Below the pieces are notes generated by a model. It did not search any database, was not told the DNA's origin, and saw nothing but the letters and a program-made list of their open reading frames with translations. From assembly GCA_022844105.1 (NCBI GenBank), contig JALHMJ010000001.1, positions 447,264 through 511,263 on the forward strand: a DNA stretch of 64,000 nucleotides, in the 5' to 3' direction. Positions 13,566 through 48,266 of the stretch are shown in pieces; position 1 is the stretch's first letter, and every line of letters begins with the position of its first letter. This stretch comes from Hyphomicrobium sp. GTDB taxonomy: Bacteria; Pseudomonadota; Alphaproteobacteria; Rhizobiales; Hyphomicrobiaceae. The translations under genes and the position numbers were made by a program.

Positions 13566-14486
13566 TCAGTTCCGCTTCTTATCGGCAACACGGATTTCAT
13601 TCCACAGCGCATCCATTTCTTCGAGCGAGGACTGCTCGCAAGTCTTGCCTTGCTCGGCGAGCCGCCGCTCGATGTAGGCGAAGCGGCGGGTGAATTTGTC
13701 GTTCGCCTTGCGCAGTGCGGTCTCGGGATCAAGCTTCAGATGCCGCGCGACGTTGGCAATCACAAACAGGATGTCGCCGAGTTCTTCTTCTTTGTTTGCA
13801 GTTTCCGACTCCCGTGCTGGGAGCCGGCCGGAAACTGCGGGGGGTTGGTTGGTCGCGTCGATTGCTAAAATTACTTCTTCCAGTTCGGTGACTTCTTCTT
13901 TCAGCTTGGCGAATACGGGGGCAAGGTCGGGCCAGTCGAAGCCAACTTTCGCGGCTTTTTCTTGTAACTTTATGGCGCGTGTAAGGGCCGGCATGGCCAC
14001 GGGTACGTCGGCGAGAAGCGACGAGCCGTGTGCGCTTGGTACATCGACACCAGTCGATGAAAGTCGCGCGCGCTCTTCGGCCTTTGCTGCGCGTTCCTCA
14101 GCCTTAATGCGCGACCAGAAGTCTGGCTGTGCGCCAGCTCCGCGCTCCTCGTTGCTGCCAAAAACATGCGGGTGGCGGCGGACCATCTTGGCGTTGACAG
14201 CTTCGGCAACGTCGGCGAACGCGAACGCATCGGCTTCCTCGGCCATGCGCGCGTGGTAGACGACCTGAAGCAGGAGATCGCCGAGTTCGTCCTTGAGGTC
14301 CGGCATGTCGCGGCGCCGAATGGCGTCGGCCACTTCGTAGGCTTCCTCGATGGTGTAGGGCGCAATGGACTCGAATGTCTGTTCGAGATCCCACGGGCAG
14401 CCGGTGCCTGGCGTGCGCAGTGCGGCCATGATCGCGAGGAGTCGTTGCAGCGCATCGGCGGCGGACGGGGTATCGGGTTTTGTCAT
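13566..14486 (-). CDS. mazG: nucleoside triphosphate pyrophosphohydrolase MazG
   Basis: GCPWDLEQTFESIAPYTIEEAYEVADAI...LKDELGDLLLQVVYHARMAEE and duplicated EELGDILFVIANVARHL. Confidence 0.95.
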   Translation of the reverse strand: MTKPDTPSAADALQRLLAIMAALRTPGTGCPWDLEQTFESIAPYTIEEAYEVADAIRRRDMPDLKDELGDLLLQVVYHARMAEEADAFAFADVAEAVNAKMVRRHPHVFGSNEERGAGAQPDFWSRIKAEERAAKAEERARLSSTGVDVPSAHGSSLLADVPVAMPALTRAIKLQEKAAKVGFDWPDLAPVFAKLKEEVTELEEVILAIDATNQPPAVSGRLPARESETANKEEELGDILFVIANVARHLKLDPETALRKANDKFTRRFAYIERRLAEQGKTCEQSSLEEMDALWNEIRVADKKRN

Positions 14487-46674: not shown

Positions 46675-46902
46675 TCAACCGCGTACCATGGTGCGCTGGA
46701 CGTTGCGCTGCTTGCGTTCGGCGACATATTCATGCTGACGGCAGCCGCACGCACCGCAGACTTCAACAGTGCGATTCAATCTATGATTGCATTGGGGGCA
46801 TTTGCCGAACACGACATAAAGCCGGTGCACGCCCCAGATGGCGTAGGATACGACGAAAACAGTAGCAATCAGCGCGAGCAGATTAAATTCTGTGAATTCC
46901 AT
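46675..46902 (-). CDS. small membrane-anchored zinc-ribbon-like protein
   Basis: One TM (FNLLALIATVFVVSYAIWGV) then CPQCNHRLNRTVEVCGACGC (two CxxC knuckles). Confidence 0.65.
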   Translation of the reverse strand: MEFTEFNLLALIATVFVVSYAIWGVHRLYVVFGKCPQCNHRLNRTVEVCGACGCRQHEYVAERKQRNVQRTMVRG

Positions 46903-47010: not shown

Positions 47011-47157
47011 GTTGTGCCCGGGTCTGACCCGTGCACGTTGGCTCTTAAAAGTCGTGCCCGGGTCTGACCAGTGCACGTTGGCTCTTAAAAGTTGTGCCCG
47101 GGTCGGACCCGTGCACGTTGGCTCGTAAAAGTTGTGCCCGGGTCTGACCCGTGCACG
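47011..47157. repeat. tandem repeat array, period 40 bp, ~3.7 copies, each unit with a 23-bp near-perfect dyad
   Basis: Units at 47011, 47051, 47091, 47131: GTTGTGCCCGGGTCTGACCCGTGCACGTTGGCTCTTAAAA with 4 substitutions in total; core GTGCCCGGGTC-T-GACCCGTGCAC. Confidence 0.95.
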
Positions 47158-47212
47158 GGGGGCGCGCGGCGAACCGCATTTCGCAACGCAGCAAATCGCG
47201 CTAATTGGGGGC

Positions 47213-48266
47213 AATGGCAAATATCGCCACAACATTGAGCTTGGATCCCGCCGACGCCGGCCCCGGTTCGGATGCGGCCCGAACTGCGGCCGAGGACCGC
47301 CGATTTTTCCGGTTCCTCGTCGTTGCGATCACGCTGCATGCCATGCTGCTGATCCAAGTCCATACGAGCGCGCCGCGGCGGCTCGGGGCTGCAGGGGGGG
47401 CCGACGATGCGATCAGCGTCTCTCTGATCACCGAGCGCGACTTGAAAGGCCGGGCAACGGTGGAAGACCAGGCAGCCGGGTTGCCCGCACCACCGCCGCC
47501 GCCCACGCCAACGCCTCAGGCAGAGCCGGCCGCGCAACCGCCCCCCGTGCCGCCAACCCCGGAGCCGCCAGCCCCCGAAGCGGCGGCGCCACCCGTGCCC
47601 CCTCCTCCTCCGCCTGCCGCTGCGCTAGCGCCTGCCGAGAAACCCGCGCCGCCTGCTGAGCTCAAGCCGACGCTGCCGGACGAGGCTGTCGAACCGGCGC
47701 CAAAACAATCCGAGCCGAAGCCGGCACCGGAGAAAAGCGAAAGCGAAAAGTCTTCGGAGCAGGCCGTCAAATCCGAGAAGACGGAAGAGGCCGCCAAACC
47801 GGTTGAAAAACCCGAGCCGCCGGCGAAGTCAAAACCAGCAGAAAAGCCGGCTCAACAAAAGCCGAAGGCGGAGCCCCAAAAGAAGCCCACGCAACGTACC
47901 GAAACGGCAAAACTCGACCTCACGCCTCCGGCGATTTTCCAGGCGCCCGTAGGTGGGGGTGGCGCCGGGGTTCAGCGGCCCGCCGGTATCACGCGCTCAG
48001 GCGAAAACGACGATTTTGCTCGCAACGTCATTCGTGCGCTGCAGACGACGATGCCGCAACTGAGGAACACATTCGGCCGCGTGACCGTGCGCATCGAACT
48101 GAACAAGAACGGCAATCTCGTTCGCACCAACGTTATCAAACCTTCGGAGATTGCGGGTCTCGATCAGAGTGTTGTGTTCGCGACCCAGCAGTCGAGCTTC
48201 CCTTTTCCGCCGCACAATGCCGTGCCCGCCGACCTGATATTCTTCGTTACCTACATTTATCGATGA
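47213..48266 (+). CDS. TonB-like energy transducer protein (Pro-rich linker)
   Basis: N-terminal TM (FFRFLVVAITLHAMLLIQVH), long Pro/Glu/Lys-rich linker, C-terminal VIRALQTTMPQLRNTFGRVTVRIELNKNGNLVRTNVIKPSEIAGLDQSVVFATQQSSFPFPP. Confidence 0.75.

Follow-up and report, generated by a model that had tools for sequence, protein, structure and literature searches.

The window analysed here is a 64,000-nucleotide stretch of the genome of an uncultured Hyphomicrobium sp., in which a short tandem array lies between a gene for a TonB-like protein and a small divergent gene. The features of the locus, in window coordinates, are as follows.

46675–46902, minus strand: small divergent gene encoding 75 aa; the product combines a single hydrophobic segment with a zinc-ribbon-like motif, CxxC...CxxC
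47011–47050, no strand: tandem unit 1, with its palindrome at 47014–47036 (centre 47025), then the linker GTTGGCTCTTAAAAGT
47051–47090, no strand: tandem unit 2, with its palindrome at 47054–47076 and one arm substitution (C to A)
47091–47130, no strand: tandem unit 3, with its palindrome at 47094–47116, centre T to G and linker T to G
47131–47157, no strand: truncated unit 4, with its palindrome at 47134–47156
47176–47203, plus strand: promoter-proximal box GCATTTCGCAACGCAGCAAATCGCGCTA, 28 nt, conserved in six species, with a putative promoter role
47214–48266, plus strand: TonB-like gene, 350 aa, TonB_C

Tandem Repeats Finder places the array at 47011–47157 (147 bp, period 40, 3.7 copies, 93% matches, no indels, score 266), and both this result and the letters themselves agree with the unit positions given in a first-pass annotation of the window. 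The end of the array, 56 nt upstream of the ATG at 47214, and the four substitutions among the copies are likewise as described there. Each unit contains a palindrome that can be read from the sequence as GTGCCCGGGTC-T-GACCCGTGCAC; the pairing of 10 out of 11 positions that had been ascribed to every copy holds for copies 1, 3 and 4 but falls to 9 out of 11 in copy 2, where an arm carries the change from C to A. All copies are intergenic and in direct orientation, such that the palindrome and its adjacent DNA are repeated head-to-tail, and inverted pairs (doublets) are absent. The tandem structure and the dyad are both above chance, the figure for the dyad being that only 0.16% of shuffled units reach a pairing of at least 10/11. 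The same level is reached by 3.4% of random intergenic 40-mers from this genome, showing that intergenic palindromes are common in it. One of the four substitutions falls in the arms (binomial P = 0.24), a pattern that carries no signal of selection on them. Given that the copies differ from one another and that the array is located inside a 660-kb contig, an assembly artefact is unlikely.

The small divergent gene proposed in the earlier annotation appears to be real, as three of the five congeners have relatives of it adjoining the tonB-like gene. A search of 60 genomes found such relatives in the genus only; in those three congeners they are divergent to the tonB-like gene, and in one species (G001) the gene is duplicated. 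The tonB-like gene itself is kept in all five congeners (67–73% identity) and, across all six species of the genus, it is preceded by the box GCATTTCGCAACGCAGCAAATCGCGCTA, which ends in GCTA 10–12 nt upstream of the ATG. This box probably represents the core promoter, with a transcription start close to the ATG, because its GCTA-A-T resembles alphaproteobacterial −10 boxes; the tonB-like mRNA is possibly leaderless. No obvious Shine-Dalgarno sequence is seen in the stretch from 47176 to 47213, ahead of the ATG. The array sits upstream of the box, separated from it by 18 nt, within DNA that is unalignable between species, and is missing at the same promoter in all five congeners (one genome per species).

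Outside the array, the 3.4-Mb genome contains no extra copy of the 23-nt dyad with up to three mismatches, and a BLAST search of the array against its own genome returned nothing further beyond chance. No convincing match to the array was found among 398 genomes of the order, CGGGTCWGACCCG occurs in these only at background level, and no genome searched has dispersed copies of the array's variant of the palindrome. The best match in the order (34 nt, 89%; L099 in G320) was taken as chance, and looks coding by eye. A second occurrence of CGGGTCGGACCCG, at G000:C9:42283, was considered as a further site in the array's own genome (G000) and was rejected as it sits inside a gene. Searches of phages, plasmids, viral contigs and genome contigs with the array gave no match, and comparison with Rfam produced only weak matches to microRNA families, far below the cut-offs, which are meaningless hairpin matches. 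The first-pass annotation had suggested a genome-wide search with the 40-mer and the dyad to distinguish between a dispersed REP family and an operator common to several promoters. The search revealed neither, because the array occurs once in the genome and is absent from relatives and collections.

The wider genome does contain structures comparable to the array. Our survey of tandem arrays, which covered 1.66 Mb of the 3.4-Mb genome in stretches (about half), identified about 15 other noncoding arrays, with periods of 31–118 and in many cases with strongly folding hairpin units. These are intergenic and occur in all gene orientations: by our own count, about a quarter of the arrays with both flanking genes called are divergent, as compared with 28% of all intergenic gaps, and this class of array is therefore not tied to promoters. 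Many of the surveyed arrays belong to a genus-specific family with the hairpin motif GAGCCGGCCGG (72 sites in this genome versus nine in the control), for which a dedicated transposase was looked for and none was found. Members of this family are REP-like hairpins in which CCGAC(T/A)C...GAGCCGGCCGG is conserved and the outer stem is variable, with changes that seem to co-vary. They often form tandem arrays of 41–53 bp, and examples are found at window positions 13797–13838 (inside the mazG gene), L119:3780-3979, L144:18009-18208 and L218:11440-11628, among others. The array at 47011–47157 was considered as a member and rejected, the motif being absent from its 40-base unit.

A second family of palindromes is linked to a transposase. 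The only Y1_Tnp gene of the genome (G000:C1:243630-243953, Pfam E 1.5e-9) encodes, at L120:3588-4115, an IS200-like Y1 (HUH) transposase of the RAYT/TIRYT type (P0001), in which the motifs HVHLLL and YIHGNPV are visible, and it is flanked by palindromes of the GGGGTCAGACCCC type arranged as TGGGGTCAGACCCC...GGGGTCTGACCCC pairs. The core GGGTCNGACCC of this family is present at 77 sites in the genome versus one for the reversed control, at 49 sites in G001, and at 3–13 sites in the other congeners; all of the sites sampled outside the window are GGGGTC-N-GACCCC palindromes of the GGGGTCAGACCCC type, mostly in inverted pairs. Such pairs were seen at G000:C1:243422-244235 (L120:3421-4236) and at about 16 more sampled places, for example L156:18985, L165:8869, L218:3930 and L225:8225. 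At 15 of the 38 outer ends, the end of the palindrome and its flank are duplicated in tandem (at least 10 nt), compared with 1.0% of 593 control GACCCC sites, and this genome is therefore prone to repeating a palindrome and its flank in tandem. As an example of such a duplication, GACCCCAGATCCACC recurs many times. The 11-nt core GGGTCTGACCC is identical in the array dyad and in the GGGGTCAGACCCC family. The outer GGGG/CCCC is not matched: in the array, CGGGTC...GACCCG is set within a longer palindrome with GTGC/GCAC, whereas the sampled family has GGGGTC...GACCCC. Sharing of an 11-nt palindromic core could be due to chance, which we estimate roughly at one in several hundred to a thousand. 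Terminal inverted repeats of tyrosine transposase genes have been described with the consensus GGGGWSAS (PMC3733652), with which GGGGTCAG agrees and the array's CGGGTCTG does not.

On balance we think it somewhat probable that a palindrome and its flank were reiterated in tandem, recently and in this species alone, to form the array, and that the array, whose palindrome is probably related to the GGGGTCAGACCCC family, has no conserved regulatory duty. The parts of this reading are not equally secure. That the form of the array arose by tandem multiplication is near certain; its kinship with the transposase-linked family, which we infer from the shared core, we would put at about one half; and a lack of any dedicated regulatory role seems reasonably likely. 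Tandem multiplication of a palindrome is favoured because the array is absent in the five congeners while the adjacent box is conserved, and an origin in a palindromic repeat because the genome is rich both in intergenic hairpin arrays and in transposase-flanking palindromes with the same core. One palindromic element, with about 17 nt of flank, would have been multiplied in tandem, by the same process that would have generated other intergenic hairpin arrays of the genome. The element is probably related, though diverged, to the dispersed GGGGTCAGACCCC palindromes found on either side of the sole IS200-like transposase gene. Copies might have been added through replication slippage, or through hairpin processing linked to the transposase or to repair. 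The array lies just ahead of the conserved promoter box and leaves it uninterrupted, and any effect on the tonB-like promoter (via a cruciform, supercoiling or protein binding) would be incidental. Against the kinship are the C-G outer pair of the array, the lack of an inverted pair, and the fact that its variant is not dispersed. Of the three readings offered in the first-pass annotation, a cluster of REP-like palindromes is the best fit, with the qualification that it is the core GGGTCNGACCC that is dispersed and not the 23-nt dyad itself.

A phasing of about 40 bp next to a promoter would also suit an operator or activator array, in which a dimeric regulator bound to the four dyads would regulate the tonB-like gene, its small divergent neighbour or both. 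Odd-centre dyads are of the kind that winged-helix dimers generally bind, and the strong GGTC-N-GACC dyads of the array are centred about 69, 109, 149 and 189 nt upstream of the ATG, regularly spaced by nearly four helical turns, in a divergent intergenic region and directly upstream of the conserved core promoter box. This position and spacing fit the operator that had been proposed. However, the site occurs at no other promoter of the genome, has no counterpart at the orthologous tonB-like promoter of the five congeners, and is not accompanied by a regulator gene among those scanned within about 9 kb; moreover, the substitutions do not avoid the dyad arms. We consider such an operator unlikely, and regard as highly improbable the more specific variant of a REP-derived regulatory array, in which a palindrome linked to the transposase was recruited and multiplied into a set of binding sites, giving the tonB-like promoter of this one species new control that copy number might tune. 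Similarly doubtful is a neutral minisatellite that arose by slippage at a chance intergenic palindrome with no tie to the transposase-linked family. The unit sequence is unique, equally good dyads are frequent in intergenic DNA (the 3.4% of 40-mers given above), and arrays with unrelated units are also present (for example at L114:9053-9205), all of which favour this reading, but the array core coincides exactly with that of a family counted at 77 sites against one in the control. The hairpin followed by AACTTTT suggested that the minus strand might hold a tandem series of weak intrinsic terminators, which would shield the small gene from antisense transcription. Folding of the minus-strand RNA does exceed that of shuffles (z −6.5), a value that tandem inverted sequence alone gives. 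No terminator-like site was found (0.8 expected), there are only four T, two bases past the stem, and the array is upstream of both genes and has no gene to end; we regard this reading as barely credible.

REP clusters reiterated in tandem and tandem REP arrays have been described (PMC3733652; PMC3116915). Like the TIR/REP palindromes of RAYT-type (TIRYT) elements in these studies, the array is short, GC-rich, palindromic, intergenic and reiterated with its flank, and its 11-nt core is the one found around the only Y1_Tnp gene of the genome; unlike them, it has a C-G rather than a G-C outer pair, lacks GGGG, forms no inverted pair, is not dispersed and has no adjacent transposase gene. With the multi-site operator arrays of dimeric bacterial regulators it shares dyad-symmetric sites regularly spaced upstream of a promoter, but not a second target promoter, conservation or a known regulator. 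Near-identical head-to-tail units at a single intergenic place, absent from related species, are also typical of bacterial minisatellites (VNTR loci), from which the array differs in that a strong palindrome dominates its unit.

A tidy, regularly spaced array of dyads ahead of a promoter need not, then, be an operator: comparison with the other species of the genus and with other parts of the genome indicates tandem multiplication of palindromic repeats, and the array looks mostly ordinary, a mobile-type palindromic repeat that has been multiplied rather than a conserved gene switch. Of wider relevance may be the tandem flank duplications that about 40% of outer ends carry in the GGGGTCAGACCCC family, which may record how these elements insert and could help to explain the insertion or spread of the palindromes. 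Finally, REPs tagged with CGTC have been described for alphaproteobacteria (PMC3733652), and a tandem block at L139:13470-14333, with CGTCATCCCGG...CCGGGACCCAG hairpins, resembles these.
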